From NCBI GenBank assembly GCA_016840855.1, contig JAEORO010000132.1:1-62417 (forward strand): DNA of 62,417 nt, read 5' to 3'. Below, in pieces: positions 12,170 through 48,432 of this stretch. Below the pieces are notes generated by a model. That model made no database searches and was not told the origin of the DNA. It saw nothing but the letters and a program-made list of their open reading frames with translations. Source of the DNA: Candidatus Thorarchaeota archaeon (GTDB taxonomy: Archaea; Asgardarchaeota; Thorarchaeia; Thorarchaeales; Thorarchaeaceae). Numbering within the stretch: the stretch's first letter is position 1; every line of letters starts with the position of its first letter. A program made the translations under genes and the position numbers.

Positions 12170-12281
12170 ATGTAGCGCCTCGCTTTAGTATGTTCTAACT
12201 AGGCTGAGCCTTATCATTAGACTTTCACTAGTATCTCGCGCGGTCATATGGTATTAATAAAGTGTTTCGGGAATGAGTTCA

Positions 12282-13199: not shown

Positions 13200-13702
13200 T
13201 CAGATGCTTCCTCCTGTTTGTCTTTGTTGGCTTCCAGTACCTCGAAAGCTCCTGTTGCTTTAAACAGCTTCAGGACATCAGAAGAATTAGCTCTGGGTAA
13301 TTCTGGCAATCCTAACTCAGCTCGTATCTTCTCAGATCTGCTTGAGATAGGCGATAGACAACCATCTTGCATTAATGATTGAGCTGAATCGATGACGTCA
13401 GGTGGTGCTTTTCCTTCTCTTGCAGATATGTTCTTTATTTCCATCAATATCTCAGCAAGTGATACACCCATTGGACATCTCTGATCACACATAAGACAAT
13501 AGGCACATAGCCACTCATTACCCTCTCTTGGGACCTCCCCTCTTGTAATAATGGAGTCAACTGATACTCTCGGATTAAGTTCAGGAGCTACTCTAAAGAC
13601 CGGACAAGACGAAGTACATATCCCACATTGGAAACATGGCCGAGCCCTCTCTTTAAGGTCTTCCAGTGTCAGGTCTTGAACATTATCAGCCATGCGTATC
13701 AC
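13196..13702 (-). CDS. hdrC: Heterodisulfide reductase subunit C (HdrC)
   Basis: A 168-residue iron-sulfur protein with two 4Fe-4S motifs: CFQCGICTSSCP near residue 23 and CAYCLMCDQRCP near 66. HdrC passes electrons between HdrA and HdrB. The GTG at 13702 overlaps the stop of the HdrA-MvhD fusion by four bases; an ATG three codons later (13693) is an alternative start. Operon order is hdrA(mvhD)-hdrC-hdrB on the minus strand. The C-terminal 30 residues are acidic and variable. Confidence 0.94.
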   Translation of the reverse strand: MIRMADNVQDLTLEDLKERARPCFQCGICTSSCPVFRVAPELNPRVSVDSIITRGEVPREGNEWLCAYCLMCDQRCPMGVSLAEILMEIKNISAREGKAPPDVIDSAQSLMQDGCLSPISSRSEKIRAELGLPELPRANSSDVLKLFKATGAFEVLEANKDKQEEASE

Positions 13703-16263
13703 TTCTTCTTTGCTGTCTGTCTTTTTGCAGTTTCCTTCGCGGAATTGCTAGCTTTCTTTTTTGGTTTTATTTTCGCTTTGGTTTCTGATTTTGGTTTTGT
13801 ATCTGTTTTTGTTTTGACCGCTCTCTTTGTTTTTGACACTACTGGCTCCTTTGGTTTTGGTGCGCTTTTCCTTGGGGTCTTTACAACCTCTGCTAACTCA
13901 GTCATAATGGTCTGCCATTTCTTTCCTTCTCCTGCAGATACCCATTCCACACCGAACCGCTCGTCTTCAATTCCATTCCTTTTCATCCATCCTCTGATTC
14001 TCGGTTCTCGTTTTGCCATCCAATGGTTCCCTGTTTGGAAGTGACAATCAGCTGGGAGGTGGCATCCGGAGTAGAGAACCGCTCCAGCTCCCTGCTCGAA
14101 AGCCCTCTGAGCAAACTTTGTAGAGTATCTTCCTGAACACATCGCTCGAATGACCCTAGCATTGGTTGGATACTGCATCCTTGATACTCCTGCGAGGTCT
14201 GACCCTCGATATGAACAGAATGCACATGCAAACGCAATTATCTTGTTTCCTGGGTCCTCCTGCAGCGCGATATCAATCTGTGTTTCAATTTGTTCGCTCG
14301 TGAAGTTTGGCATATAGATAGCATCTTGCGGACAATCGCCAGCGCATGTCCCACAAGCCTGGCAGAGAGCACCCATGACAGTAAATTTACCAGTGCCATC
14401 CTGTGAGATGGCCCCATATGGACAGCGTTGTACGCATGTCCCACACCTGCTGCAGAGATCTTGCAATATCTTGGCACTTAGTGCTTCAATCGGATACCTT
14501 CCCTTCTGAAGAATGATAGCTGCCCTTCCCGCAGCAGCACTTGCTTGAATAACAGAGTCCCTTATGTCCTTTGGACTCTCTGCGCCTCCACAGATGAAGA
14601 CACCTGCGGAGCTGGTATCAACTGGTCTTAACTTTGGATGTGACTCAATATAGAACGAGTCATGAGTGCAAGATATTGGAAGTGGAAAGTTTCCTGCTGT
14701 TCCCTCAGCCCCCATCGAAAGTATTACCAAATCGAAGTTTTCTAGAAGAAGCTTGTTATGAGTGGTGTCCTCGACACTCACACGAAGGTTCTTGGTCTTC
14801 GGATACTGCTGGATTTCACCCACTCGACCCCGAATGAACTTAACACCTTCTTCTCTCGCTTTCTGATACTGATCTTCAAAGTACTTGCCATGCATTCTCA
14901 GATCCTGATAAAAGATGGAAACCTCTGTGTCTGGGTAGTGCTCTTTGATGAGGAGAGCACATTTCACAGACTCTGCACAGCAAAAGTTCGAACATCCTGA
15001 TCGTGTGCTGATATCTCGTGAGCCAACACATTGAGCAATTGCTACTGAGGTTGGTTTAGATAGGTCCGATGGTCTAACAAGTGCCCCCTCAGTAGGACCA
15101 GCCGCATTGATTAGTCGTTCGAACTCTAATGAAGTGATCACATTTGGATACCGCCCCCATCCAAGTCGGGGAGTTTTACTTGGGTCCGCTGGTTTAAACC
15201 CGGTGGCTAGAATAATCACTCCAACATCAAGATCAATGTACTTTCCTCGGTCCGAGGCTATAATGGCCTCTTGCTCGCAACGGTCAATGCATTTTCCACA
15301 TCTAATCAAATCCATTCCAAGACATGCATCAGGGTCAATGAAGTAACTCGAGGGGACTGCCTGTGGAAACGGTATTTGAATTGCCTTTTGCCATGTCAGA
15401 TTTTGATCGGTCCGGCTCGGAACATCTACTGGGCAGACCTCTACACAGTCTCCACATGCTGTACAAGCATCAATTTCCACATATCTGGCTCTCTGTTTCA
15501 CTCTAACCTCGAAGTTCCCAACGTATCCTGAGATTGATTCGACCTCTGCCATTGTGATCATATTGATATTCGGGTGTTTGGCAACGTCTACCATTTTTGG
15601 GCCTAAGATACAGATGGAACAATCATTTTGAGGGAACACCTTGTCAAGAATCGCCATGATTCCTCCAATGGTGGGTTGTTTCTCAACCAAGTGAACCTTG
15701 AATCCTGATTCTGCAAGGTCGAGAGCTGCCTGCATCCCTGCCACGCCTGCACCCACGACAAGAGCCGCCTGAGTCACTGGAACATCTTGTTCAGGTTGCG
15801 CCTGGAGAGTTGCGGCCTTGGCAACAGCCATTGCTACTAGGTCCATTGCCTTTTGGGTTGCTGCTTCGTGGTCATGTTGGTGAACCCATGACACGTGCTC
15901 TCTGATATTCGCCATTATACACAAGTATGGATTAAGTCCTGCAGCTTTGACGGTTTTCCTGAATGTGTCTTCATGCATAGTTGGACTGCAGGATGCAACA
16001 ACAATACGGTTGAGACTATGTTCTGCAATGGCTTCTTGAATCTCTCTCTGCCCCGGGTCTGCACAGGTATAGACATTCACCTGAACATGTGCAACACCTG
16101 GAAGTGTTTTGGCATACTCAGCAACCGCATCAATGTCTACAACAGCTCCAATGTTTTTGCCACATTTACAAGGAAATACGCCGATACGTAGCTCAGGATC
16201 GGTTGATACAACTTCGATGTCTGCAGGTCCTGCACTACTTCCTTTTGGATCACTTGTGGTCAT
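13699..16263 (-). CDS. hdrA: HdrA fused to MvhD, with a lysine-rich C-terminal tail
   Basis: About 854 residues. The HdrA part (1 to about 670) has the N-terminal RIGVFPCKCGKNIGAVVDI, the FAD segment VVGAGVAGMQAALDLAESGF, the cluster segment NDCSICILGPKM, an inserted ferredoxin (CTACGDCVEVCP) and C-terminal ferredoxin clusters (CSRCGTCVQRCP, CQACGTCAGDCP). An MvhD domain (about 673-797) follows: CAFCSYRGSDLAG, MCSGRYS and GCHLPADCHF. MvhD normally links hydrogenase MvhAG to HdrA. The last 57 residues contain about 20 Lys. The ATG at 16263 is preferred because a TATA-like TTTATTA at 16317-16323 puts the transcript start downstream of the other candidate, 16305. Confidence 0.95.
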   Translation of the reverse strand: MTTSDPKGSSAGPADIEVVSTDPELRIGVFPCKCGKNIGAVVDIDAVAEYAKTLPGVAHVQVNVYTCADPGQREIQEAIAEHSLNRIVVASCSPTMHEDTFRKTVKAAGLNPYLCIMANIREHVSWVHQHDHEAATQKAMDLVAMAVAKAATLQAQPEQDVPVTQAALVVGAGVAGMQAALDLAESGFKVHLVEKQPTIGGIMAILDKVFPQNDCSICILGPKMVDVAKHPNINMITMAEVESISGYVGNFEVRVKQRARYVEIDACTACGDCVEVCPVDVPSRTDQNLTWQKAIQIPFPQAVPSSYFIDPDACLGMDLIRCGKCIDRCEQEAIIASDRGKYIDLDVGVIILATGFKPADPSKTPRLGWGRYPNVITSLEFERLINAAGPTEGALVRPSDLSKPTSVAIAQCVGSRDISTRSGCSNFCCAESVKCALLIKEHYPDTEVSIFYQDLRMHGKYFEDQYQKAREEGVKFIRGRVGEIQQYPKTKNLRVSVEDTTHNKLLLENFDLVILSMGAEGTAGNFPLPISCTHDSFYIESHPKLRPVDTSSAGVFICGGAESPKDIRDSVIQASAAAGRAAIILQKGRYPIEALSAKILQDLCSRCGTCVQRCPYGAISQDGTGKFTVMGALCQACGTCAGDCPQDAIYMPNFTSEQIETQIDIALQEDPGNKIIAFACAFCSYRGSDLAGVSRMQYPTNARVIRAMCSGRYSTKFAQRAFEQGAGAVLYSGCHLPADCHFQTGNHWMAKREPRIRGWMKRNGIEDERFGVEWVSAGEGKKWQTIMTELAEVVKTPRKSAPKPKEPVVSKTKRAVKTKTDTKPKSETKAKIKPKKKASNSAKETAKRQTAKKK

Positions 16264-16600
16264 GTACCAGTCCTCGTTTTGCAGAACACATCTTTGCAGC
16301 TTCATTCAACATTAGTAATAAAGGTTGAGAATAACAAACACAAATCACTTCACAATATTTCAGTTACAGAAAAAAACAGTCTAATGACGTATAATATCGA
16401 ACAAATATCACCGCACTATGAATGGATGCGCCTATGTAAAGTTCGACTTACTCATATCTATCATTCAGGCACAGCGATTTGTCCAAACATCAAGAATAAG
16501 ACAGTCCTTGCCAAATTTAAGTCTAGAATATATTTGTGAGATTACCAAAAGTGTAAAAAGCATGACAAGGGCGAAACACCTACATTTGGGAGGCTATTCA
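16264..16600. promoter_or_regulatory. Divergent promoter region between hdrA-mvhD and GGGP synthase
   Basis: No gene is supported in these 337 bases. On the minus strand, TTTATTA at 16317-16323 lies about 55 bases from the HdrA ATG. On the plus strand, an A/T block at 16514-16534 (AATTTAAG and ATATATT) precedes the GGGP synthase ATG at 16601 by 67-85 bases. An in-frame upstream extension of the GGGP synthase frame starts at 16418 but lacks family similarity. Confidence 0.5.
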
Positions 16601-26908: not shown

Positions 26909-27709
26909 ATGTCTGACCCGCTTGTAACTTGCCCCTCCTGTGGTTTGGATGTCCCTGAAGGGCGATACTGTAAGATTTGTGGAAAACCACTTGTTGCAGA
27001 ATATTCTACAAATCCCCCAGAAAAAGAACCACTGTCTGAGGACAAGATAGATCTCGTTGCTCCTTCTTTAAAAGCTGAAAGACTAGTTCTACCTCATTTC
27101 GATATTTCAATTGAAGACATGGAAAAAGAGGCTGCTATCATACTTCTATCTAGATCGGAGCTTGATGTTGTAGATTTGGAACTTGATAGCATAATCGAAC
27201 GGACCAAAGCAACTAGGCAGGCTCTGCAGCTTCAAAAAGCAAACAAACAGGTGCTAACTATCAGGGCTGAGGAGCTGCGTGAAGAATTCGAGAAGACTAA
27301 AAACCGTCGAAGAGAATTGGCAGCTGTTTCAGGACCAATAATCCTAGAAAGGTTACTGGATGCTTTAGACAAGGATGAACAGCGGCTAGAAAAACTCGAA
27401 GAAATCTCAGGAACCGTTGACAAGAGTGTCTACAAAGAGCAACGAACTGAGATACTCAGCTCAATCAAAGAAATTCGTGAGAATCTAAAAGTAGCCATCA
27501 AGACCGTTAAAAAGTGGGTTAAGGGGATTAAAAAGACACTGAAGAACCTTGACAAGGAAATGAGCAGGATTGAAGCCAAATTCAAGATTGGCGACATATC
27601 GCGAGATTCCTATGAGTCCACAAAAGTAAAACTTGAACGAAACACCAAGATTGTGGAAGGTGGCCAGGAGAGATTGATATCACTACTCAGAACTGCTGAG
27701 AAGAGATGA
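26909..27709 (+). CDS. Zinc-ribbon and long coiled-coil protein
   Basis: A 266-residue protein. Residues 8-25 form a zinc ribbon (CPSCGLDVPEGRYCKICGKP). After a Pro/Glu linker, residues 70-260 are a nearly continuous charged helix with heptads (REEFEKTKNRRRELAAVSG; VDKSVYKEQRTEILSSIKEI; IKKTLKNLDKEMSRIEAKFK). No membrane segment or ATPase motif. The architecture suggests a scaffold or adaptor. I considered a CdvA-like cell-division role, but no PRC-barrel domain is present. It is followed after 28 bases by the Cys-rich gene. Confidence 0.78.
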   Translation: MSDPLVTCPSCGLDVPEGRYCKICGKPLVAEYSTNPPEKEPLSEDKIDLVAPSLKAERLVLPHFDISIEDMEKEAAIILLSRSELDVVDLELDSIIERTKATRQALQLQKANKQVLTIRAEELREEFEKTKNRRRELAAVSGPIILERLLDALDKDEQRLEKLEEISGTVDKSVYKEQRTEILSSIKEIRENLKVAIKTVKKWVKGIKKTLKNLDKEMSRIEAKFKIGDISRDSYESTKVKLERNTKIVEGGQERLISLLRTAEKR

Positions 27710-28265: not shown

Positions 28266-29264
28266 TTGGACTTGAGTCGTCTCGAAGAAATCTTGAAGCT
28301 CCTCCTGAGCTTTGATGGTATCTCACGAAAATTCGTGCTTCCTTCTATTATTGATAGGCTTCGGCTGGAATCTTATAATGGTAATACACCGCATAGCCTA
28401 GGAGAAGACTCTGCGGCGATAGGGACGGATTCTGACGATTTTGTGCTCCTTACTACAGATGCGATTGTTGAAGATCTGTGTTTCAATCACCCTTATGCGG
28501 CAGGATTTAATGCTGTACTTGCAAATATGATGGACATCTATGCTGCAGGTGGAACACCAACCTCATTTGCAGTTGCTCTATCATATTCTGATCCTAAAAT
28601 TGGAAATGCATTACTTGATGGTTTAATCAGCGGGTCTCAAATATTTCGTGTTCCTATTGTTAGAGGTCACACAAACCCACGGTCGAGCTCTACGTATGTT
28701 GTTGGATCTGCAACGGGCACGGTGGCAAAAACAAACCTTCTCACAGCAGGAGGCACCGAATCTGGTGACATCTTGATTCTGCTGTTTGATGAAGTCGGAC
28801 AAAGAGGCGAGAGCTATACACTGGGGTGGGACTCAGTAACAGGTCGCACGTCTGATGATGTTGTACTTAGACTCTCTGTGATGAATGAACTTGCCAATGA
28901 GCGAATTTTGACAGCTGCAAAGGATGTGTCCGTCGCTGGAATAATTGGTACAGCTGGAATGATGTTGGAATATTCAGGGTGCGGAGGTACTGTAAGCTTG
29001 GACTCTCTCGATTCTACGTGTCCGTCTGAAATTCCTCTCGAAGACTGGATTCGGATGTTCATCTCGCTGGGTTTTCTTGTATCGACATCTGAAGAGAATC
29101 TGCCAGAAGTGAAGCGAATTGCGAAAGCACATGGACTGAGAGCCACAGTCATTGGGCGAGCTGATGAGTCCAAGGCTGTCAAACTAGTACTTAATGATGA
29201 AGAATGTGTATTCTTTGATTTTTCAAATGGAGGTATTCTTACCCCGAAGAATTTGAATACATGA
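28266..29264 (+). CDS. PurM/AIR-synthase-like ATP-binding protein (methanogenesis marker 2-like)
   Basis: A 332-residue protein of the PurM superfamily. The N-terminal domain has the ATP-site pattern GEDSAAIGTDSDDFVLLTTD and LANMMDIYAAGGTPTSFAVAL; the C-terminal domain has VSVAGIIGTAGMMLEYSGCG. The superfamily includes AIR synthase, ThiL, HypE and SelD. It is not SelD: the N-terminal Cys/Sec-containing loop is absent. It best resembles the stand-alone archaeal AIR-synthase-related proteins such as methanogenesis marker 2. Substrate is unknown. The start is TTG 28266. Confidence 0.82.
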   Translation: MDLSRLEEILKLLLSFDGISRKFVLPSIIDRLRLESYNGNTPHSLGEDSAAIGTDSDDFVLLTTDAIVEDLCFNHPYAAGFNAVLANMMDIYAAGGTPTSFAVALSYSDPKIGNALLDGLISGSQIFRVPIVRGHTNPRSSSTYVVGSATGTVAKTNLLTAGGTESGDILILLFDEVGQRGESYTLGWDSVTGRTSDDVVLRLSVMNELANERILTAAKDVSVAGIIGTAGMMLEYSGCGGTVSLDSLDSTCPSEIPLEDWIRMFISLGFLVSTSEENLPEVKRIAKAHGLRATVIGRADESKAVKLVLNDEECVFFDFSNGGILTPKNLNT

Positions 29265-29313
29265 TGTCAATGCGCTATAGTTATAATAGAGAATAACAGG
29301 TAATGCACTCGAA

Positions 29314-29538
29314 GTGTCCCAAGTGTCAGAAGATAAGATTTGCAGCATTGTTGGTTGTAGGAAGCCTTCAAAGAGATCTATGAAGAGAGATAGGATTGCT
29401 GAGAGTGTAGCAAAATCCAATCTCAAGGTTAAAGACGCACAATCAAGGACAATCTACTTATGCGCTGATCACTGGAAAGCAGTGAAGAAGGTTTTCAAGA
29501 AAGAAACAAAACCAGAACGACTTCGTTGGGGTCATTAG
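29314..29538 (+). CDS. Small basic protein with possible zinc site
   Basis: A 74-residue protein with CSIVGCRKPSKRSMKRDR near the N-terminus and YLCADHWKAVKKVFKK near the C-terminus. The Cys-x4-Cys and Cys-x2-His pairs could form one zinc site. The rest is strongly basic, consistent with nucleic acid binding. GTG at 29314 or 29323 could be the start; TTATAATAG (29281-29289) upstream suggests a very short leader. Family unknown. Confidence 0.65.
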   Translation: MSQVSEDKICSIVGCRKPSKRSMKRDRIAESVAKSNLKVKDAQSRTIYLCADHWKAVKKVFKKETKPERLRWGH

Positions 29539-29596
29539 AACTCGCAAATCTGATCGCAAATTTGCTCCTGAGACCTTGCAGATGGAGTGGTTTCAA

Positions 29597-29956
29597 ATGG
29601 GTGCAAAAGAGAAGCGTAACCTTACTCTGGTGCCAGACTACAAACTATGGTTTGAACGTGATGGGGAGTATATCTTTGGCCCAGGAGCGTATGCCATCCT
29701 CAAATCAGTACATGAAGAGGGAACTATAACTGAAGGCGCTAAAAAACTAGGCATGTCTTACCGCTATGCTTGGGGAGTCATCAAAAAGATAGAGCGGAAG
29801 CTAAGCATCACCTTGGTTGAGACCTTTAAAGGTGGAACGGAAGGTGGGGGTGGTGCAAGAGTGACTGAGAGTGGACTGAAACTCATGGAGCTGTATTATA
29901 GCATCAACAATGCGTTCAACGATGTGCTTGAGTCATCCGATAAACTGACTCTATGA
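29597..29956 (+). CDS. ModE-like winged-helix regulator, DNA-binding domain only
   Basis: About 119 residues. The LysR/ModE type winged helix is clear: ILKSVHEEGTITEGAKKLGM, SYRYAWGVIKKIERKLSITL, then the wing VETFKGGTEGGGGARVTESG. ModE senses molybdate or tungstate in bacteria through a separate C-terminal domain that is missing here, as in many archaeal proteins. The ATG at 29597 follows GGAGTGG. Control of the tungsten/molybdenum-related genes in this window is possible but unproven. Its end overlaps the convergent polyferredoxin gene by six bases. Confidence 0.85.
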   Translation: MGAKEKRNLTLVPDYKLWFERDGEYIFGPGAYAILKSVHEEGTITEGAKKLGMSYRYAWGVIKKIERKLSITLVETFKGGTEGGGGARVTESGLKLMELYYSINNAFNDVLESSDKLTL

Positions 29957-31024
29957 GAACTTCAAGATGATTGCGTTATTCGGGCAGTGGCTCTTACATT
30001 CCAAGCACATTATGCAATCTGGACTGTACATGTGTTTGTATGGGTATTTTCTGATTCGTATGTTCATTGGGCATACGACCTCGCACACATTACAGGTATC
30101 TGGTGTGCATCGTGCAGGATTTCTACCAATCCCAATCAGCGCATCACGTGAAAAGATGCTATAGAACCAGCCCGCAGGACAAAGCCACCTGCAGAACCAT
30201 CGAGGAACCCAAAAGGAAACAAGAAAAACGAAGATGACAAACACCATCTGCAGCAGCGCCCAAATCGACCATAGGTTGGGGTCAGTGAAATACCATAGGG
30301 TTTCCAGACTAGTTGGCCATCTTTGACCCGGTAAAAGGACAAACAGAATGTATGCAGGATTCAATGGAGCGAAGGCATCATTGACAAAGTCACCTAATGC
30401 ATTCTCAAGAGCTCCGGCTGTTCCTGTAAGTCTAGCAAATCCTACCCAGACAGCAAGGAAAGCGACAATCACAAAGATGTATGCTTTCACTTTTCTAAGC
30501 TCTTGCTCAGTTCCCTGAGTTGGGCGTATCTTAGTTCTTTTTGGTAGAGTTATGAAGTCCTGAATAGTGCCAATTGGACAAATCCAGCCGCAGGGCGCTC
30601 TACCAACAATGACGACTATGATCAACATCGCCCCTATTGTAAAGAATGGGAAGAAGCCTGTTGCGAACTCGCGTATCATTGTATCAAATGAACCAGCAAT
30701 GACACCAAAGGGAGCTTCTAACGGTGCCAAAATGGGCAATGTAGGTAAATTCTGCCAAATGGATAACCAAAACGCTTGAACATTGGGCATATGAAACCAT
30801 GCTAGAAGAATGTACCCATTAATTCCGATGAAGGCGAGAATCTGAAAGATACGTCGAAGCATCCTGATGTTTAAGATGAATCCAAGAGGATTTGACCTGA
30901 GGCTGATCTTTCTTGCCTCTTTCGTTTCCACGGTTTCTGGAACATCCTCAGGCATCCCTTCCTCTGGTTCGGACTCTTCGTCATCTGTACCAGTTTCGTC
31001 GACTCTATCGACATCCTCTGCCAT
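29951..31024 (-). CDS. NapH/MauN-like membrane polyferredoxin
   Basis: A 357-residue protein. An acidic N-terminal segment of about 35 residues precedes at least five membrane helices. Two cytoplasmic-side CxxxCP motifs follow helices (APCGWICPIG and RWFCRWLCPAG), and the C-terminus has two 4Fe-4S motifs (CNVCEVVCP; CIMCLECKSHCP). This layout matches NapH/RdxA/MauN-type electron carriers. No partner reductase or FMN-binding protein is adjacent. It is monocistronic, convergent with the ModE-like gene. Confidence 0.88.
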   Translation of the reverse strand: MAEDVDRVDETGTDDEESEPEEGMPEDVPETVETKEARKISLRSNPLGFILNIRMLRRIFQILAFIGINGYILLAWFHMPNVQAFWLSIWQNLPTLPILAPLEAPFGVIAGSFDTMIREFATGFFPFFTIGAMLIIVVIVGRAPCGWICPIGTIQDFITLPKRTKIRPTQGTEQELRKVKAYIFVIVAFLAVWVGFARLTGTAGALENALGDFVNDAFAPLNPAYILFVLLPGQRWPTSLETLWYFTDPNLWSIWALLQMVFVIFVFLVSFWVPRWFCRWLCPAGWFYSIFSRDALIGIGRNPARCTPDTCNVCEVVCPMNIRIRKYPYKHMYSPDCIMCLECKSHCPNNAIILKFS

Positions 31025-31113
31025 TGCTTTCAGTCCTCACCTGAGGGTGCTAGCGGCGTGAACCTGAGCCTAGATTAAAAACGTTGCGCTCAATTTACTG
31101 GATGCCCATCATC

Positions 31114-31539
31114 TCAAATTGGGACTTCTAAGAATATGATATGGATGGTATCACCAATTAATGTGAACTCTGCAGAATAGAGCACTCTTGTAGTGTGTGA
31201 TAATATTGTATCATCGATTATAATTTCATGGTTGTATGATGCTGGCCAAGTACTTGGCGATGTTCTACCATTGTCAAATAGGACCGTTAGCGTGTTCCCA
31301 CTGGCAGTCACCGAGATGCCGGGATTTACCCAAAAAGTGAATGCGGTCGTATTTAGAGCACCCGTGTCAACATCTCTTGTAGCGTTGTGAATCTTTTCTG
31401 CTACTGAAACTGCATCCTGCAGTTCTGATGTTGTGTTAATTGTATCAATCGCATACATCAACACTGGTACGCCTATAATTACCACTGTTGAGAGACCTAT
31501 TGCAATTAACATCATTTTCTCAAGAGACCGTGACACCAT
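31114..31539 (-). CDS. Small exported or anchored protein, pilin-like
   Basis: A 141-residue protein with a short basic N-terminus (MVSRSLEKM) and one hydrophobic helix (about residues 10-30: LIAIGLSTVVIIGVPVLMYA). The remaining 110 residues are beta-rich and lie outside by the positive-inside rule. The layout resembles archaeal type IV pilins or FlaF/FlaG-like proteins, but no clear class III signal cleavage motif is seen. No pilus gene is nearby. It diverges from selB. Confidence 0.65.
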   Translation of the reverse strand: MVSRSLEKMMLIAIGLSTVVIIGVPVLMYAIDTINTTSELQDAVSVAEKIHNATRDVDTGALNTTAFTFWVNPGISVTASGNTLTVLFDNGRTSPSTWPASYNHEIIIDDTILSHTTRVLYSAEFTLIGDTIHIIFLEVPI

Positions 31540-31641: not shown

Positions 31642-33036
31642 ATGGACAATCTTGTCCCGGTACATGTGGGTCTCATGGGTCATATAGACCATGGAAAGAC
31701 AGCCCTTGCACAAGCACTCAGCGAGAGAGTTTCCACCGCTGGTTTGGATAAGCATCCACAATCACAGAAACGTGGCATTACCATAGATCTTGGGTTCACA
31801 ATGTTTGTTCTTGACAAATTTCTTGTAACACTCGTTGACGCTCCTGGACATGCTGACTTGATACGTAGTGTCGTAGCGGGTTCGAACATCATAGACTCAG
31901 CCATTCTGGTGGTGGCTGCGGATGAAGGTCCAATGATACAAACAGGAGAACATCTTGTTGTTCTTCAGTCAATGGATATAGAGAATATTCTTGTAGCAGT
32001 GACTAAAACTGATCTGGTGACTCCTGAGAGAATCGCTAAAATAGAAGAGAAAATGAGATCCATTCTCGCAGAAACTCCTTTTTCAAATGCAGAGTTTGTC
32101 AGAGTTTCAGCATTGAGAAATGAAGGTCTCGATGAACTTCGAGTAGCGCTTTTACGATGCTTAGTACCTCGGACTAGAGATTCAGAAAGTCCTTTGTCCA
32201 TTCCAATCGACCATGCGTTTCCTGTTAAGGGACACGGTACTGTGGTGACAGGTACTATTCAAAGAGGAAAACTCAAACTCGGTGATGTGGTAGAAATTGC
32301 TCCACTTGACAAAAAAAGCAGAGTTCGCTCAATTCAAACATTTGGCGAGAGTCGTGATGTCGTTAGTGCAGGTGATAGAGTAGGTGTTAACGTTCCAGAG
32401 GTCAACGATACCGAAATCACAAGGGGTGATTATCTCTGTGCCCCTGGAAGTATGCATTACACAACAGGATTCATTGCACATTTAGAAATCAATCCACTCT
32501 ATCGTGGCCGAATCACTAAAAGGATGACTGCCAGTATCTCAGCTGGAATGCCTGTGGTAACAGGGCAGATAGTACCTGTACAAGAAACGAATGGCATCAT
32601 GGTAGTTCAAGATGTGGTGAATACCAAGGAGTTCAGTGCAGCTCTTCTGCTTCAGAAACCAATTGCACTAACAGAAGGAACCAAGGTTTTACTCCTTCGT
32701 ACCGATTTACCGCCTACACAAATGAGAATCATTGGATCTGGCGACGTTGTTAACATTCCTGACAAGATAACTCTCTCCAGACCTCGATTAAGAATAGGTA
32801 AAGTCCAGAGAGTCAGGGACAAAGACGTCCTAGTTGAAGGACTGGCGTCCAATAAGGAAGTAGCTGAGCGATTAGTCGGAAGCAATGTATCCTCCGCTAG
32901 TAGTGTAGTTGGTGTTATTAGGCAGCCTTTTGGTACACGCGGTGTTGTTTCAGTAGAATTCAAAGGATCAGTGAAAGAGTTTGAAACAGTGACCTATCGA
33001 CGTTTGATAGAGGAGGAGTATAGATTTGGACAATGA
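31642..33036 (+). CDS. selB: Selenocysteine-specific elongation factor SelB (EFsec)
   Basis: A 464-residue GTPase. G motifs: GHIDHGKT (13-20), DAPGH (66-70) and TKTD (121-124). Domains 2 and 3 follow (FPVKGHGTVVTGTIQRGKLK; ITRGDYLCAPGS), then a short domain 4 (RPRLRIGKVQRVRDKDVLVE). The size, GHIDHGKT loop and short C-terminal domain fit archaeal/eukaryotic SelB, not the bacterial form with winged helices. SelB carries Sec-tRNA to recoded UGA. It begins the Sec operon; TTTTATG near 31602 may be the TATA element. Its stop overlaps SepSecS. Confidence 0.93.
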   Translation: MDNLVPVHVGLMGHIDHGKTALAQALSERVSTAGLDKHPQSQKRGITIDLGFTMFVLDKFLVTLVDAPGHADLIRSVVAGSNIIDSAILVVAADEGPMIQTGEHLVVLQSMDIENILVAVTKTDLVTPERIAKIEEKMRSILAETPFSNAEFVRVSALRNEGLDELRVALLRCLVPRTRDSESPLSIPIDHAFPVKGHGTVVTGTIQRGKLKLGDVVEIAPLDKKSRVRSIQTFGESRDVVSAGDRVGVNVPEVNDTEITRGDYLCAPGSMHYTTGFIAHLEINPLYRGRITKRMTASISAGMPVVTGQIVPVQETNGIMVVQDVVNTKEFSAALLLQKPIALTEGTKVLLLRTDLPPTQMRIIGSGDVVNIPDKITLSRPRLRIGKVQRVRDKDVLVEGLASNKEVAERLVGSNVSSASSVVGVIRQPFGTRGVVSVEFKGSVKEFETVTYRRLIEEEYRFGQ

Positions 33037-34345
33037 TGAGATTGATCGCATCCTTGAGAAGAACATCCCAAAGAGTATGCGTCAACGTGGAAGAACGACA
33101 GTTGACTCGCTAATGAGCCCGATCAGAGATGTTCTAAATAGACGAAGGTTTCCTGAAAAGGGACTTACAGATCTTCAACTCGAAATGATGTTTCAACTCC
33201 TCTCCTCTCTTGACACTGATAAAGACCCTGAAGCAGCAAGGGTTGGTGAACGAGAGGCTCGAATAGCATCACCTTTCATCGGTCGTTTATCAGCAGGTTT
33301 CAACCACGGTGTTGGGCGGAGTGGGAAGCTTGCTGCACCTCAACCGAAAGCTCCCGGGGCATCCTTGATGCAGCAAGTAGCAAACAGTGTTGCACTTGAT
33401 GCAATTCGTAAGCTCGGTCTTAGCAATATGAAGTCAGGAATTGTGACTCCATTATCAACTGGAATGAGTATTGCGCTCATTCTTAGTGCGTTACGAAGAG
33501 AACAGGGAATCAACCGAGTCCTTTTTCCTCGTGTAGACCACGCATCTCCTCATCGAGCTATTGCTTTTGCAGGACTTGAGAAGATTGTAATTCCTACATT
33601 GATTGAAGGAGATGCTGTTCGAGTTGATTTGGAACAACTGAAACAGCAAATAGAATCGACTGAATCAAGTGCTGTCCTTGCTACGACTACATTCTTTCCA
33701 CCACGAGAATCCGACCCAGTAAAGGACATTGCAAAGTCTTGTGCAAAGCACGACGTGCCTTTAATCATCAATAATGCATACGGTGTCCAATCTGATAGGA
33801 TTATGAGTGAGATTCGTTCTGCAGCAGACGCAGGATATGTGACCGCAGTTGTTCAAAGCAGCGACAAGAACTTTCTTGCACCTGTTGGTGCATCAATCAT
33901 TGTTTCACCTTCGGAGGACTTTGTTGAGCAAATCACAGAGACCTATGCAGGACGCGCATCTGCAGCACCGATAGTTCAAACACTGGCTGCTCTATTAGCG
34001 ATTGGATTGGAGAATTATAGGGCTCTCCAGCTGGAGCAGTCTGAGAACCTGAAAATCCTTAACGAGAGAATGAATGAAATCGCAGACAAAATCGGTCAAA
34101 GATTACTTTCAGTCTGGAATCCTGTGGCATGTGCGCTCACAATGGATGGTCTGGATGCAAATGAGGTTGGAGCAAAGCTCTATAACATGCGTGTAACAGG
34201 GCCTCGGGCAGTGGCTAAAGGTGAGTTTGGATCCTCATGTGATAACTACCCTCATAGCTATTTGGTGATGAATGCAGCAATCGGGGCATCCAAAAATGAC
34301 GTCGAAACAGCTACGATGAAACTAAATAAGGAAGTCCGTAGATAG
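33026..34345 (+). CDS. spcS: O-phosphoseryl-tRNA(Sec) selenium transferase (SepSecS)
   Basis: A 439-residue PLP enzyme that converts phosphoseryl-tRNA(Sec) to selenocysteinyl-tRNA(Sec). The PLP lysine is K281 in VVQSSDKNFLAPVG. Other family blocks are GFNHGVGRSGKLAAPQPKAP (about 91-110), TPLSTGMSIAL and TTTFFPPRESD. The start is TTG 33026, 11 bases inside selB, preceded by GAGGAGGAG. The overlap makes coupled translation with SelB likely. This enzyme occurs only in archaea and eukaryotes with the phosphoseryl route. Confidence 0.95.
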   Translation: MDNDEIDRILEKNIPKSMRQRGRTTVDSLMSPIRDVLNRRRFPEKGLTDLQLEMMFQLLSSLDTDKDPEAARVGEREARIASPFIGRLSAGFNHGVGRSGKLAAPQPKAPGASLMQQVANSVALDAIRKLGLSNMKSGIVTPLSTGMSIALILSALRREQGINRVLFPRVDHASPHRAIAFAGLEKIVIPTLIEGDAVRVDLEQLKQQIESTESSAVLATTTFFPPRESDPVKDIAKSCAKHDVPLIINNAYGVQSDRIMSEIRSAADAGYVTAVVQSSDKNFLAPVGASIIVSPSEDFVEQITETYAGRASAAPIVQTLAALLAIGLENYRALQLEQSENLKILNERMNEIADKIGQRLLSVWNPVACALTMDGLDANEVGAKLYNMRVTGPRAVAKGEFGSSCDNYPHSYLVMNAAIGASKNDVETATMKLNKEVRR

Positions 34346-34376
34346 ACTATGAAACCCTTGAGGGAGGAAAATAGGT

Positions 34377-35030
34377 TTGGATGCTTCAGAGGATATGGTG
34401 AAAGTATCACGTAGTCTGAATTATTCCGTTGATGATTCGACCACAGTCTTCAGAATCGCATGGTATGAAGTTGCTTCGAAACCCAACGTAATCCTAGAAG
34501 AGTATAGAGAGGCCGAGAGTCAGGTTTTCAAAGGAGAGGCGAAATTCTCACTTCGTATCGCTGGCGAGAGAGCACTGGCTAACATCTCTGTTGATGGAGC
34601 TAAGTCGACTATCGGAGTTGAGGCTGAAGGGGTTGATGAAGTTGCAGTTGGTATCTTTCTAGATGGTTTCGCAGGATCTTTAAACAATGCACTTGCGAAA
34701 TACGATGCATTATCAGATGATCATAAGTCTAAATTGAAACGAGCTCTCGTAGCAAAGACCTGCTGGGACAGAATGGTGCGTGAAATCCTCAACAAGGCGC
34801 CTCTCAATGATGTTTACATACAGGTGGCTCATGGTCGCGAGATGATGATTAAAGCCACAGAAGGAGAGGAAAATGTACCCTCCCTCACCTTGACCACATC
34901 CGGATGGCTCTCAAAGATAGAATCCCTCCCTCGTGATGAAACATTACCTAGTAACATTGCCTCTGAGCTTGCAAAGAAGAGTATAGAATGGAAGAAAGAG
35001 ACCCAAGACATTATCAGCCGTTACATTTAG
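34377..35030 (+). CDS. Unrecognised protein inside the selenocysteine operon
   Basis: A 217-residue soluble protein, no family recognised. It begins at TTG 34377 after GGGAGG, 31 bases after SepSecS, and ends 43 bases before tRNA-Sec, so it lies in the Sec operon. The N-terminal half is alpha/beta (SRSLNYSVDDSTTVFRIAWY; GEAKFSLRIAGERALANISV; GVEAEGVDEVAVGIFLDGFA). The C-terminal half is helical with a basic patch (DHKSKLKRALVAKTCWDRMV). No RNA-binding or enzymatic motif is visible. Context suggests a helper of Sec synthesis or insertion. Confidence 0.8.
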   Translation: MDASEDMVKVSRSLNYSVDDSTTVFRIAWYEVASKPNVILEEYREAESQVFKGEAKFSLRIAGERALANISVDGAKSTIGVEAEGVDEVAVGIFLDGFAGSLNNALAKYDALSDDHKSKLKRALVAKTCWDRMVREILNKAPLNDVYIQVAHGREMMIKATEGEENVPSLTLTTSGWLSKIESLPRDETLPSNIASELAKKSIEWKKETQDIISRYI

Positions 35031-35073
35031 ATTCTGAATTGGTCTTCTTGCATCAGGAAATTCACTATTCTAT

Positions 35074-35164
35074 GGCCTCCTACAGGACCGGTGGTCTGGT
35101 TCCGTGGGCTTCAACCCCATGAACGTGCAAGCGTTGAGAGTTCGATTCTCTTAGGAGGCCGCCA
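35074..35164 (+). tRNA. tRNA-Sec, anticodon UCA
   Basis: A full selenocysteine tRNA can be folded. The acceptor stem is nine perfect pairs (GGCCTCCTA with TAGGAGGCC), discriminator G at 35161 and CCA encoded at 35162-35164. The anticodon stem CGTGGG/CCCATG encloses loop CTTCAAC with anticodon TCA at 35111-35113. A long variable arm (AACG/CGTT) and a short T stem with loop TTCGATT follow. The 9+4 acceptor/T layout, G discriminator and TCA anticodon are hallmarks of archaeal/eukaryotic tRNA-Sec. No TATA box is apparent in the 43 bases before it. Confidence 0.95.
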
Positions 35165-35359
35165 TTATTTCTTAGATTTCCTTAATGAATAATCCCGAAT
35201 TATATATCCAAGAACTAGCCCGACTAGGAATGTCATAAAAGGTCTAACATCTATATATCCCGTTAATTTGATAGTTTGTATTTGGAGTATGAATCCCCCA
35301 CACATTGCAAGCATTATGACAAGTAATAAGCTCAAGAATAGCAGAACAAAGAATTTCAC
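35165..35359 (-). CDS. Small two-helix membrane protein next to tRNA-Sec
   Basis: A 64-residue protein starting with GTG. Helix 1 spans about residues 2-25 (FFVLLFLSLLLVIMLAMCGG), helix 2 about 40-55 (PFMTFLVGLVLGYIIRDY), and the C-terminus is basic (SLRKSKK). Its stop codon is immediately next to the tRNA CCA end on the opposite strand. It lies downstream of PSTK on the same strand with an 81-base gap and is probably cotranscribed. No family recognised. Confidence 0.55.
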   Translation of the reverse strand: MKFFVLLFLSLLLVIMLAMCGGFILQIQTIKLTGYIDVRPFMTFLVGLVLGYIIRDYSLRKSKK

Positions 35360-35440
35360 AACAATATTCCCATGATCTTCCTATTCGTCATTCTTCTCGT
35401 CATTGATAGTTTCATAGGCCTCTGACATCACCAAATCTCC

Positions 35441-36190
35441 TTACAACAGTTTGTTCAATTCATCTACAAGTATCTCACTAACATCCTTGAGTGGAATCCT
35501 CCGTTCAATAGCGGAATAAAGAACGCCACGTCTAATGATTGATACTTTTCTACTTCCTCTCAACTCAGGATGTTTTTGGAGAAACTCAGACACTATTAAT
35601 CGGGTTTTTGTATCTAATTCATTGAACTCATTACTGGAAACCAAAAGTGGTTCTGGTTTGATTGCTGGCTCAAGTGTTTCAAGAATATCTAGAATCTCAG
35701 GAACGACCACTGACAACTCTTGAGTTTCCATATCAACCTCTAGCTCTGCGTTATCCCAGAGATACCGTCGTCCTGGATTATCAAATCTCTCAAAGATGTC
35801 CTCAATGACGCTGTCAGGAATGGGAGAGTTTTTTCGTTCTTTGTTCCATTGTAAGGCTGTAGTAACAGATGTGGAAACATGTATGATTCCAAATCCACAT
35901 CTATTCCCTATGGCTACATCAAACAACTCGTGTCTCATACTGGTGTAGTAGTTCGTGTCATCATGGATTATACTCTTGCCTTCTGCCACCAGTTTCTTGA
36001 CACGTTCAATTGCCTTCTGACGAACTGGTTTTTCCTTCTCAGGCATCCAATTTGTATAATATTCATCATCTCGCCAATCATCAGTCCTTACAATCTCCAC
36101 TTCGTAGTTCATTGCCTTTTGTATGGCATCAGCTAAAGCTGATTTGCCTGATGCTGGAAGTCCACATAGCACTAGGATGAACTGTTTCAT
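35441..36190 (-). CDS. pstK: L-seryl-tRNA(Sec) kinase (PSTK)
   Basis: A 249-residue kinase that phosphorylates Ser-tRNA(Sec) to give the SepSecS substrate. The P-loop is GLPASGKS (residues 10-17), followed by the Walker B-like TDDWRDDEYYTNW region, the DDTNYY segment, the arginine-rich RFDNPGRRYLWDNAEL and a helical C-terminal tRNA-binding region. It is divergent in orientation from the selB operon, with the tRNA between them, so the two transcripts converge. Length fits archaeal PSTK. Confidence 0.93.
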   Translation of the reverse strand: MKQFILVLCGLPASGKSALADAIQKAMNYEVEIVRTDDWRDDEYYTNWMPEKEKPVRQKAIERVKKLVAEGKSIIHDDTNYYTSMRHELFDVAIGNRCGFGIIHVSTSVTTALQWNKERKNSPIPDSVIEDIFERFDNPGRRYLWDNAELEVDMETQELSVVVPEILDILETLEPAIKPEPLLVSSNEFNELDTKTRLIVSEFLQKHPELRGSRKVSIIRRGVLYSAIERRIPLKDVSEILVDELNKLL

Positions 36191-36277: not shown

Positions 36278-37222
36278 CTATGGCTTAATTGTAATCCGTA
36301 GACTGTTGGCTAAGTCCTTGTACCTATTTCGCACAGTCACTTCAGTCACATTTGAAGCTTCAGCAATCTCTCTTTGAGTACGTCTATCATCTTCAATGAT
36401 TCCAGCAATATAGAGTGCTGCTGCTGCAAGACCGCCTGGGTCTTTTCCAGCTGTAATCCCTCTCTTGCGAGCATCATTGATGATATTCATTGCAGTCTGG
36501 ATAGTCTTGCCATCAAGTCCGAGATCTGCAGAAATTCTAGGCATCAGGTCGTTCGCTGACGGAATTGGTACCTTGATGTCAACATTGCGTAGAATTAGAC
36601 GGACACACTGACCAAGCTCCTTCCGGTTGACTCTAGCTTCTGTTACAATCTCATCAAGTTGTCTTGGAATCTTATGAATCCTACACGAGAGATAGATAGT
36701 TGCAGCTACCATGCCCTCAATACTTCTTCCTCTTACAAGACGCCTACCTAAGGCTTTCCTGTAAATGAGTGCAGAGGTTTCTTTAGTTTCTTGAGGAACT
36801 CCAAGCTGTGATGTGAGCCTGTCCATCTCGCTCATAGCAATGCTAAGGTTTCTGTGCTGAGAGCTGTGCACTAGGGTTCTAATTTGCCATTTTCGCATCC
36901 GATAGATTGCTGCACGGCTATTTGCGGCAATCGCGCGACCATTTGCATCTCTGTCACTCCAGCCAATTGTCGTGGCAAGACCTTTGTCTGCCATTGTCAA
37001 TGTCATTGGAGACCCTGTTCGTGCTCTAGAGTTGCGCTCTTCAGAAGTAAAAGCTCTCCATTCAGGTCCAGAATCTAGGATTCTCTCATTCATAACACAT
37101 CCACAAGATGTGCATATGTGCTCTCCACGTGTCAAGTCTTGGTAAAAATCACTACCACCACATACAGAACAAACAGTCATACCTGGTCGACTAATTGTTG
37201 TGGGTCGTGCCGATCTTGCCAT
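36278..37222 (-). CDS. tfb: Transcription initiation factor TFB (TFIIB-like), copy 2
   Basis: A 314-residue TFB. Zinc ribbon CSVCGG...CTSCGC at residues 18-42, B-reader EWRAFTSEERNSRARTGSPM, and two cyclin repeats ending with RTQREIAEASNVTEVTVRNR. It shares the core blocks with TFB copy 1 (19000-19968) but the N-terminus and linker differ. TTATATA (minus strand, 37335-37341) is a good TATA box about 113 bases before the ATG. A hairpin terminator follows the stop. Confidence 0.96.
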   Translation of the reverse strand: MARSARPTTISRPGMTVCSVCGGSDFYQDLTRGEHICTSCGCVMNERILDSGPEWRAFTSEERNSRARTGSPMTLTMADKGLATTIGWSDRDANGRAIAANSRAAIYRMRKWQIRTLVHSSQHRNLSIAMSEMDRLTSQLGVPQETKETSALIYRKALGRRLVRGRSIEGMVAATIYLSCRIHKIPRQLDEIVTEARVNRKELGQCVRLILRNVDIKVPIPSANDLMPRISADLGLDGKTIQTAMNIINDARKRGITAGKDPGGLAAAALYIAGIIEDDRRTQREIAEASNVTEVTVRNRYKDLANSLRITIKP

Positions 37223-44756: not shown

Positions 44757-45671
44757 TTACTCCGCTTGTTTCATGTTTCTCCGAATCTTCGAGAGGTACG
44801 ATGATGCATAATCTGTGAAATAAAATGAGCCAATTGGATCTGGAAATGATGCCTCGAGCTTTTCTACGGGCATGTCAGAAATTGCCCCTAATGCAGAAAT
44901 AATCTTTGCACCGTGGTCAACGACTGAAGGTGGTGGTCCAAAGCATCCCTTACAGGGTGTGGCTTTGGATGGACATTGTGCTCCGCAGAGACCTATGGTA
45001 GCAAAACCCAAGCACAGATATCCCTGATCAAGGAGGCACTTTGTTGGGTCAATCCTCCCCTCATGAGTCCTGCGGAATTGCTTGATGTGTTTCTCTTCTC
45101 GTTCCATCGGACATTGATCACAAACGGTCTTGTCAGGAAGGTCATAGGGTTTATTATTCAACAGGGCTGACAGAGCATCAAGAGTGTTCTCGCTAGTCGG
45201 AGGGCATCCCGGAAGGACCAGATCAAAATCGACAATATCTGTATTTGGTATGATACTCTCTGTAAATCCAGGTACGTTCTCTTTCGGAATTCTTCCGTCT
45301 GTGATGGTTTCTACTTTGAGGAATTTCCTGTCAAGTAGTTCGTTCAAATCCCACTGATTAGCCAGACCTTGGATGCCGCCATAGACGGAGCAGGATCCCC
45401 ACGCAACAAGTGTCTTGCTTTTGTCCCGCATCACCTTCAGTAAATGAATGTCTTCCTCTGTCCTACAACTTCCCTCAACTAGTCCGATATGAATCGAATG
45501 TTTTGAGAGTGTTTCTAGGTCCTGAAGTTTATAATCAACAACCGCAGGCCAATAGACAATATCCAGTGAGGGAAGGACATCTAACAGCTTCAAATGAAGA
45601 TCAATGAGTGCTTGATCACATCCCCAGCACGAGGTCAACTGAGCGAGTGCTATACGTTTGGTCTTTACCAT
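44757..45671 (-). CDS. mvhG: F420-non-reducing hydrogenase small-subunit-like protein (MvhG)
   Basis: A 304-residue iron-sulfur protein of the hydrogenase small subunit family. Proximal cluster ligands: TSCWGCDQALIDLH (residue 13 on), VEGSCRTEED, GSCSVYGGIQG and LPGCPPTSE. The C-terminal Cys-rich part (CDQCPMER; CLGFATIGLCGAQCP; CKGCFGPPP) binds further clusters. In Mvh this subunit transfers electrons from MvhA to MvhD. Here the residue after the second Cys is Asp, where the family often has Glu. No catalytic large subunit (MvhA) gene lies next to it. Confidence 0.93.
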   Translation of the reverse strand: MVKTKRIALAQLTSCWGCDQALIDLHLKLLDVLPSLDIVYWPAVVDYKLQDLETLSKHSIHIGLVEGSCRTEEDIHLLKVMRDKSKTLVAWGSCSVYGGIQGLANQWDLNELLDRKFLKVETITDGRIPKENVPGFTESIIPNTDIVDFDLVLPGCPPTSENTLDALSALLNNKPYDLPDKTVCDQCPMEREEKHIKQFRRTHEGRIDPTKCLLDQGYLCLGFATIGLCGAQCPSKATPCKGCFGPPPSVVDHGAKIISALGAISDMPVEKLEASFPDPIGSFYFTDYASSYLSKIRRNMKQAE

Positions 45672-45674
45672 GGT

Positions 45675-46151
45675 CTATATTCCCTCTCTTGCTGGGTTCG
45701 GCCCTAGCTTCTTAATGCGCTCAACCATGTTCGTGACTCCGGCTGTGAAGACATCACCCTCAGCTGCACTAGCCCATTGAAGGTGGACTCTTTCTGGCTC
45801 AACCCCTGCCTGTTCCAAAAGGCGCTTCAGTAGAGTGTATCGAGCCTCCATCTTCAAGTTGCCACTGGTGTAGTGGCAATCCCCTGGATGACAGCCAGAG
45901 ATCAATACACCATCTGCTCCTTGATACAACGCATCCAAAATGAATGAAATGTCAATCCTGCCTGTGCAGTTCACTCGTATGATTCTGACGTTAGGTGGCA
46001 TCTGCATTCTACTTGTTCCTGCAAGGTCAGCTCCTGCGTATGAGCACCAATTGCAGCAGAACGCAAGGATACGTGGTTCGAATTGACTTGATTTCCTTGG
46101 TCTCCTCTTGGGCTGTGGGATGCCGGTTGATTTGGGTGTGACGCTAGACAC
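45675..46151 (-). CDS. mvhD: MvhD (FlpD-like) iron-sulfur subunit
   Basis: A 158-residue protein with the complete MvhD core: RILAFCCNWCSYAGADLAGT, RVNCTGRIDISFILDALYQG and LISGCHPGDCHYTSGN, a 2Fe-2S protein linking hydrogenase or formate dehydrogenase modules to HdrA. About 25 basic N-terminal residues precede it. The GTG at 46151 follows GAGGAGG with 8-base spacing. It precedes mvhG by 3 bases, forming a two-gene operon. A second MvhD domain is fused to HdrA at 13699-16263. Confidence 0.93.
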   Translation of the reverse strand: MSSVTPKSTGIPQPKRRPRKSSQFEPRILAFCCNWCSYAGADLAGTSRMQMPPNVRIIRVNCTGRIDISFILDALYQGADGVLISGCHPGDCHYTSGNLKMEARYTLLKRLLEQAGVEPERVHLQWASAAEGDVFTAGVTNMVERIKKLGPNPAREGI

Positions 46152-46557: not shown

Positions 46558-48432
46558 TTAAGCGTCCTTACTAAGACCAAGCCGTTGTAGGGTTTCTTTC
46601 AAGGGTAGACCTGTCTTCAGGTCCCAACCTCGCTCAGTATAATACTCATCTAGCATCATATCTAGCTCGACAACCTCGCCGGCGGATGGTCCTACAGGGG
46701 CTTTTTCCTTTGTGAGCCTATCCGGCAAACAATCATCCTTTCTCGAAACACCAAGACGTGCATTGAACAATCGGTTGAGGTTTACGATTCTCTCACCAAT
46801 GACTTGGAGGTCTCTTCCAGTCAAATCAAGGCCATTATGAATCTTGAGAGCAAGGGCAATATCATCGTAGAAGAACTCTGGAGGAATTTGAGTCCCATAC
46901 TTACACAGACCTACACTCTCAACCATGACCATGAAATCTTCACACTCCTTGACCATGATTCCCTTGTATTTTGGATTCAAACGGTCCGCCATCTCAGGAA
47001 GGTATTCTTCGCCAAATCGCTCCCTGATATCATCATCAAAACCAGCCTCATCAAGAACTGGGAATCCATAAAGATGATCGGCGCCTCTGGCTGCAGTGAC
47101 AGCAGCAAGCCCCATGGACTTCTGGGCTCTGGGTTCTTGCCCTGCAATCTCTTGCTTTTTCACAGCCATGACGAACTTCTCAGTTCCCCTACCTATTCTC
47201 TTAGCTGCTCTCGCACTTCCTTCTGCAAGTATATCTCCAAAGCCCTCCCGCAACGCAATCATTCGTGTCAAGTTTACAACAGTTTCATGGTTCCCCCAGC
47301 TGAGATCAATCCCACCTGTGTCTTCAGCAGTCAGAAGACCTTTTTCCCATGCCTCCATTGCCCAAGAAATTGTTCCACCAAGCGAGATGGTGTCCATTCC
47401 GTATTGATTTGAAAGATGATGTCCAAAGAGTACTGACTCAAGGTTATCATTTCCGCATCGAGATCCCATAGAAGATTGAGTTTCAAACTCAGGTGCGCCT
47501 CCCTCGTAAGCATAGGGTCCAGTTCTCACTGCAGTATACCTGCCACATCGCTGTAGACACGAGAAGTCTGCTCTGGCCTTCACAAGATACTTCTCATTTA
47601 TGGCATCTCCACTTATCTTCTCAAATCCATCAAAGACACCCTGTTTCATATTATAGCTTGGCAACCGTCCTATATGCTGCATGAGTTCCACAAGACTGGT
47701 GGTTCCATACTTTATACGACCGGGAGTGAATGGATTTGCCATCATTCGTTTGTGGAACACATCTATCTGTTTCAGATAGTTCTGCGGGTCAGCAACAATG
47801 AGTTTTCCGGTCCCTCTCACTGAGACCGCCTTCAGTTTCTTGGCTCCCATGACGGCTCCAAGTCCTGAACGCGCAGACGCACGGTCTCTGTCATTCATCA
47901 CTGCTGCAAACCTCACAAGGTTCTCGCCAGCTTGACCGATAGATAGAGTCCTGATTCTCCTACCATGTTTTGCCTTGAGGATGTCATCGGTTTCAAAGAC
48001 GTCCTTTCCCCAGACGCCTGCACTCTCAGCGTCCACGAGTTCTACATCTTTGTCCTTTATGTTTAGATACACTGGACTTGAAGATGCACCGGTGAAGATG
48101 ATTGCGTCATATCCAGCAAACTTCAGTTCTGCCCCCCAAAATCCTGCTGCGTGACTCTCACCCCATACATCTGTCAAAGGTGAATGAGCTGCAATGACAT
48201 GCCTTGAGGCTTGCGGGAACATGGACCCTGTGAGAAGTCCTGTCGCCATGCCTAGTACATTCTTATCGCTGAGTGGATCGATTCCTACTGGAATGGTATC
48301 AAAGAGGACTCTAGATAGAAACCCGGCTCCCAGAAGATAGTCTTTGACAATCTCCTCGTCTAATGGTCGTTTCTCAATGGACGCCTTTGTCAGGTTTATC
48401 CACAGGATTTGGCCTCCGACTCCCTTTATCAT
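46558..48432 (-). CDS. aor: Tungsten-containing aldehyde:ferredoxin oxidoreductase family protein, copy 1
   Basis: A 624-residue AOR-family enzyme that oxidises aldehydes (or related substrates) with a tungsten bis-pterin cofactor. Family segments: GQILWINLTKASIEKRPLDE at the N-terminus, ARSGLGAVMGAKKLKAV, and the cofactor region PEFETQSSMGSRCGNDNLES. The iron-sulfur motif is D289-x2-C292-x3-C296 (ADFSCLQRCGRY), with Asp in place of the first Cys; the last Cys is in VGLCKYGT. The ATG overlaps the ferredoxin stop by four bases. It ends the MoaD/amidohydrolase/ferredoxin operon. Confidence 0.94.
   Translation of the reverse strand: MIKGVGGQILWINLTKASIEKRPLDEEIVKDYLLGAGFLSRVLFDTIPVGIDPLSDKNVLGMATGLLTGSMFPQASRHVIAAHSPLTDVWGESHAAGFWGAELKFAGYDAIIFTGASSSPVYLNIKDKDVELVDAESAGVWGKDVFETDDILKAKHGRRIRTLSIGQAGENLVRFAAVMNDRDRASARSGLGAVMGAKKLKAVSVRGTGKLIVADPQNYLKQIDVFHKRMMANPFTPGRIKYGTTSLVELMQHIGRLPSYNMKQGVFDGFEKISGDAINEKYLVKARADFSCLQRCGRYTAVRTGPYAYEGGAPEFETQSSMGSRCGNDNLESVLFGHHLSNQYGMDTISLGGTISWAMEAWEKGLLTAEDTGGIDLSWGNHETVVNLTRMIALREGFGDILAEGSARAAKRIGRGTEKFVMAVKKQEIAGQEPRAQKSMGLAAVTAARGADHLYGFPVLDEAGFDDDIRERFGEEYLPEMADRLNPKYKGIMVKECEDFMVMVESVGLCKYGTQIPPEFFYDDIALALKIHNGLDLTGRDLQVIGERIVNLNRLFNARLGVSRKDDCLPDRLTKEKAPVGPSAGEVVELDMMLDEYYTERGWDLKTGLPLKETLQRLGLSKDA

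Follow-up and report, generated by a model that had tools for sequence, protein, structure and literature searches.

The DNA considered here, a contig of 62,417 nucleotides from a Candidatus Thorarchaeota archaeon (GCA_016840855.1, JAEORO010000132.1; hereafter the window), raises the question of whether its genes for selenocysteine (Sec), the 21st amino acid, belong to a complete and working system in a member of the Asgard archaea, to which eukaryotes are closer than to any other known archaea, and of what an additional protein encoded among them, here called SelX, contributes. The reading that we favor, with a probability of roughly 0.88, is that the window holds the genes with which a Thorarchaeon makes and inserts Sec, that SelX is most likely an adaptor recruited to this locus, and that the system is probably working.

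Profiles, solved structures and covariation established what the components are. SelB scored 294 bits against the TIGR00475 cut-off of 242, carries the aSelB domain III, and has the archaeal SelB 4ac9 as its best solved relative (E 4e-98); its GTPase motifs are GHIDHGKT (position 13), DAPGH (66) and TKTD (121). SepSecS reached 461 bits for TIGR03531 (cut-off 225) and matched 2z67 (E 2e-112), and its catalytic pyridoxal phosphate (PLP) lysine is K281, located in the motif SSDKN. The tRNA-Sec was called as SeC/tca by ARAGORN and scored 56.4 bits against a threshold of 47 for Rfam RF01852. When 25 Asgard sequences were aligned, 97.7% of the cloverleaf cells were paired (99% for the 9-bp acceptor stem and 100% for the 4-bp T stem) and double changes were present at 25 of the 30 pairs, values that no shuffle reached.

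An earlier note on this DNA had described an archaeal/eukaryotic-type Sec pathway in which SelB, SepSecS, tRNA-Sec(UCA) and PSTK lie within 31642-36190, and most of that description was upheld. The coordinates are correct, K281 and the 9+4-type tRNA are as it gave them, the GTPase motifs that it mentioned are present, the overlap of selB and sepSecS that it reported amounts to 11 nt, and the presence of SepSecS, PSTK, archaeal-type SelB, tRNA-Sec, SelD and a Sec insertion sequence (SECIS) agrees with the pathway type. It had left the tRNA to the verdict of folding software, and both ARAGORN and Rfam accepted it. Its list of four components was accurate, but overlooked a fifth conserved gene at 34377-35030, which encodes SelX. 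SelD, which it regarded as missing here and proposed to seek elsewhere in the genome, is indeed absent from the window and was found on another contig, C21.

This selD gene (G000:C21:32283-33092, minus strand; 207 bits, over the cut-off) has an in-frame UGA in its active-site motif, HGUSCK, and the 19 aligned Thorarchaeal Sec-SelDs and three Loki-type copies all have their UGA at this site. The stop codon is also UGA in 19 of 19 Thorarchaeal genes and is at once the UGA within the core of the SECIS (N-UGA...GA), an arrangement previously described in Lokiarchaeia (Mariotti 2016, cited in PMC11227280). The 7-bp upper stem of the SECIS covaries at 7/7 pairs among 19 Thorarchaeota, and this arm is one branch of a covarying three-way junction (G000:C21:32009-32088, minus strand; L039:1227-1306; L130-L147). 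In the outer stem, the last codons of Thorarchaeal selD, GAG ACC G (Glu-Thr-Glu), pair with a downstream CGGTCTC; this stem is 100% paired, and at three of its pairs the changes compensate each other, for the most part where the codon position is silent. Next in the junction comes a companion hairpin, GCCGC-NGCRA-GCGGC, with double changes at 4 of 5 pairs. RNAalifold recovered the same three-way layout unguided, and it recurs in three Loki-type selD genes (L148, L149 and L151, only three sequences), in which the whole element is downstream of the stop codon. A covariance model of the element found matches in 22 of 44 relatives, scoring 80.6 bits for G000:C21:32009-32088, and was strong in three genomes outside its training set (G189, G185 and G209), while a search of this SECIS against Rfam gave no credible match. 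The main text of Huang 2024 (PMC11227280) models the SECIS core, upper stem and apical loop only; the junction is richer than the element modeled there, although priority is not certain. If confirmed, it would give the ancestor proposed for the eukaryotic SECIS a further structural element.

Within the window, the AIR synthase was considered as a candidate SelD and was ruled out, being methan_mark_2-like (220 bits for TIGR03267 versus 36 bits for selD). Four other Thorarchaeal genomes with a Sec locus (G206, G216, G212 and G199; L125-L128) encode a Cys-SelD (GLGCACK) within an open reading frame of ~750 aa, and neither a Sec-SelD nor a SECIS match was found in them; SelD has apparently been swapped for a fused Cys form.

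Because the in-frame UGA of selD in HGUSCK is accompanied by a covarying SECIS with the UGA stop in its core, the Sec system is probably functional in this genome, as judged from sequence. Following the known pathway, SerRS would place serine on tRNA-Sec, PSTK would then phosphorylate the Ser-tRNA-Sec, and SepSecS would exchange the phosphate for selenium from selenophosphate, the donor made by the SelD encoded elsewhere. SelB would deliver the resulting Sec-tRNA-Sec to those UGA codons that a SECIS marks. The tRNA-Sec gene lies behind the selB-sepSecS-SelX run, with pstK convergent to it. SelX would most likely be an adaptor, consisting of an alpha/beta platform and a bundle like the VPS28 C-terminal domain (CTD), brought into the Sec locus with a function independent of Sec.

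The locus is real, complete and ordinary for Asgard archaea, and its arrangement is standard for Thorarchaeota, in which Sec use was already published (Sun 2021, PMC9723677; Huang 2024, PMC11227280), together with a SelB tree (Sun 2021, PMC9723677). The earlier note had considered the clustering of the four genes unusual among archaea and proposed examining gene order in related genomes; the order selB, sepSecS, SelX, tRNA-Sec, pstK was found within ~6 kb in at least 17 Thorarchaeal loci, the window included, and is not rare. In Loki-type genomes (f20), sepSecS and SelX adjoin, and tRNA-Sec often directly precedes sepSecS; SelB is as a rule several kb distant, and pstK lies elsewhere. In the window, selB, sepSecS and SelX form a tight co-directional run that is probably an operon, and the TTG starts of sepSecS and SelX each follow a clear Shine-Dalgarno sequence (GGAGGAG for sepSecS). 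In one single-contig Thorarchaeal genome (G186, locus L117), SelX is truncated and the downstream tRNA-Sec, pstK and TFB are missing, which may reflect a breakpoint, decay of the Sec locus or a mistake in assembly.

SelX is a clear member of the NCBIfam family NF045535 (Sel_Asgard), at 213 bits against a cut-off of 132. An AlphaFold2 (AF2) model based on 59 Asgard sequences (predicted local distance difference test, pLDDT, 96) has five helices behind a beta-alpha-beta4 part, and Foldseek matched the helices to the VPS28-CTD structure 2j9w with a template modeling (TM) score of 0.71 by target length and a probability of 1.00. A PDB sequence search using the SelX alignment returned nothing significant. 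SelX-like domains also end Loki-type proteins of ~800 aa that have PCI, UFL1/DDRGK-like and ear-like regions, and they recur in many large proteins of one genome, G083; the bundle of these large paralogues matches Pfam VPS28 (PF03997; 1.4e-5 in L045, 5.4e-10 at best). The predicted fold and the kin of SelX suggest that it is an adaptor, and neither an enzyme nor a binder of RNA like L7Ae. Among the Asgard proteins of ~620-800 aa (L045-L049, L234) in which a SelX-like platform and VPS28-CTD-like bundle stand at or near the C-terminus, the other parts vary by member and include zinc ribbons, PCI/winged-helix repeats, and UFL1/DDRGK-like and ear-like regions. Proteins of 130-144 aa from Sec-using genomes (L226, L227 and L236; f16/f17; G083, G082 and G084) correspond to the helical half of SelX only and share the motif VYFALA[DA]SRE.

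In 43 of the 45 fetched loci that have both genes, sepSecS is followed directly by SelX in the same orientation, and this adjacency spans eight Asgard families (f1, f2, f14, f15, f19, f20, f21 and f24). The two genes also co-occur strongly: across 228 Asgard genomes, both were found in 112, SelX only in 14, SepSecS only in 20, and neither in 82. Together, co-occurrence and adjacency argue for a link of SelX with Sec. An unnamed Asgard-only protein often located near secS, efSec and pstk (MBD3157761.1), for which a link to Sec was suggested (Huang 2024, PMC11227280), is probably of the same family. The same observations, along with the absence of SBP2 from Asgard archaea (PMC11227280), would fit a SelX that is a dedicated Sec component, whether as a SECIS-binding or SelB-bridging stand-in for SBP2 or as a partner of PSTK or SepSecS, in which case the copies of Sec-less lineages would be leftovers or repurposed. 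This alternative deserves consideration but is rather unlikely, given where else SelX is found. It scores above the family cut-off in eight f12 genomes and in G175, a single-contig genome of 1.42 Mb, all of which were found to have neither SepSecS nor PSTK, so that the Sel_Asgard family is not restricted to Sec users; orthologues with weaker scores occur in f4. In f12, G175 and f4, SelX lies beside neighbors of the Thorarchaeota type (UppP, DUF47, a tRNA endonuclease and a zinc-ribbon/CdvA-like protein), with selB and sepSecS absent there and a NapH-like protein also present in f12. Conversely, SepSecS occurs in all four f27 genomes and PSTK in three of them, two of the genomes being 100% complete, and no SelX was found in this family even by a broad profile. 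A consistent RNA-binding charge is also missing: the net charge of SelX is not consistently positive, the Thorarchaeota proteins being acidic with a mean isoelectric point (pI) of 5.4, and the fold indicates adaptor modules. A SelX tree bearing on the gain or loss of Sec around this gene left the deep branches without resolution.

Doubtful, and less probable again, is the proposal that SelX is a trans-acting Sec-insertion adaptor that ties SepSecS or SelB to the SECIS and so replaces SBP2 by a protein of unrelated, ESCRT-like fold; such a factor might contact the companion hairpin of selD and would have been drawn from a general Asgard adaptor family. Since lineages without Sec keep SelX, its function would be independent of Sec, and recruitment of an adaptor to the locus is a likelier origin for SelX than a role as an enzyme devoted to Sec. 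The database name, which implies a Sec protein, is thus probably too narrow. In the window, a zinc-ribbon protein with a weak CdvA-like coiled coil is encoded at 26909-27709, near a tRNA splicing endonuclease, and this block remains linked to SelX in Sec-less Asgard.

Several points weigh against the overall reading. The association counts for SelX and SepSecS ignore phylogeny, the Foldseek E-values are weak (0.11 for VPS28-CTD, the best), and the window SelX itself matched no Pfam family, PF03997 included. SelD was the only selenoprotein found in the genome, HdrA and Prx outside the window not having been searched; none of nine FlpD/FrhD matches in the genome had a UGA, and Sec-FrhA was not seen in a NiFe hydrogenase search. 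The source, a metagenome-assembled genome (MAG) of an Asgard archaeon (3.36 Mb, 92% complete), has a contamination of 6.3%, yet the window matches dozens of Thorarchaeota contigs; named genomes with related loci, sought with Thorarchaeal SelX, are nearly all Thorarchaeota, the nearest being SMTZ1-45 (84% identity of the SelX protein). Finally, profile searches, to which the earlier note had entrusted the SepSecS and PSTK frames, placed the former above its cut-off; the PSTK score of 136 bits is below the TIGR03574 cut-off of 290, a value that none of the 228 Asgard genomes reached. That the gene is instead a KTI12-like kinase with another substrate, PSTK having been lost or lying elsewhere, would accord with this score and with a 119-bit match to the KTI12 family (PF08433), but is very improbable and was dropped, as the gene's PDB matches are solved PSTKs and nothing else (nearest 3adb/3a4l, E 4e-21), it shares a DDTNYY-SMR block and the switch-region D/R with M. 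jannaschii PSTK, its presence tracks SepSecS (both in 119 genomes, PSTK only in 7, SepSecS only in 13, neither in 89), and no second PSTK candidate was found in the genome.

Table 1. Sec locus and flanking genes in the window.
Feature	Position	Strand	Basis
selB / EFSec, Sec-specific elongation factor, 464 aa (archaeal size)	31642..33036	+	TIGR00475, aSelB_III, 4ac9, GTPase motifs
sepSecS (spcS), Sep-tRNA:Sec-tRNA synthase, 439 aa	33026..34345	+	TIGR03531, 2z67, PLP K281; TTG start
SelX (NCBIfam Sel_Asgard), 217 aa	34377..35030	+	NF045535, AF2 model, place after sepSecS
tRNA-Sec (UCA), 9/4 type, CCA encoded at 35162-35164	35074..35164	+	ARAGORN, RF01852, covariation
pstK (PSTK)	35441..36190	-	sole candidate in genome, 3adb/3a4l, co-occurrence with SepSecS
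TFB (transcription factor IIB)	36278..37222	-	NF001658 423 bits; synteny
methan_mark_2-like AIR synthase	28266-29264	+	TIGR03267 220 bits; conserved upstream block 28266..31539
ModE-like gene	29576-29956	+	conserved upstream block (synteny)
NapH-like ferredoxin protein	29951-31024	-	conserved upstream block (synteny)
small membrane protein	31114-31539	-	conserved upstream block (synteny)

The order of genes in the window is AIR synthase(+), ModE-like(+), NapH-like(-), membrane protein(-), selB(+), sepSecS(+), SelX(+), tRNA-Sec(+), pstK(-) and TFB(-) (Table 1). TFB is a flank of the cluster that is kept in Thorarchaeota and is not a Sec gene. Farther away, genes for HdrA, an HdrA-MvhD fusion, MvhD and MvhG-like proteins (10199-16305 and 44757-46151) all have Cys and no UGA, and two genes resemble aldehyde:ferredoxin oxidoreductases (46558-48432 and 57894-59822).

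Comparison with known systems places the locus among its relatives. The methanococcal Sec system (M. jannaschii, M. maripaludis) provides the best solved relatives of SelB, SepSecS and PSTK, which are orthologues (4ac9, 2z67 and 3adb). Unlike in the window, Sel_Asgard was not found in the M. jannaschii control, and the methanogen SECIS has a GAA_A bulge in place of the GA quartet (PMC11227280). SelX belongs to NF045535, annotated as a 'putative selenocysteine system protein', members of which also score above the cut-off in Asgard archaea without Sec genes. Its bundle superposes on 2j9w of VPS28, a component of ESCRT-I, and PF03997 matches the homologous domain of the large Asgard paralogues; unlike VPS28, SelX does not have the VPS28 N-terminal region, and the window SelX lacks a Pfam VPS28 match. 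The locus singles out SelX as the first uncharacterised protein to examine and offers a conserved, tightly packed group of genes with which to test how Asgard archaea recognize SECIS elements without SBP2. The published Asgard Sec systems (Loki-, Thor- and Sif/Jordarchaeia; PMC9723677, PMC11227280) have the same five components, a 9/4 tRNA-Sec, a Sec-containing SelD and a eukaryote-like SECIS with a GUGA/AUGA..GA core and type II ministem, so that there is no difference in principle and the window represents one more Thorarchaeal copy; what is new relative to them is where the extra gene lies, the predicted fold of its product, and the three-way junction of the selD SECIS.

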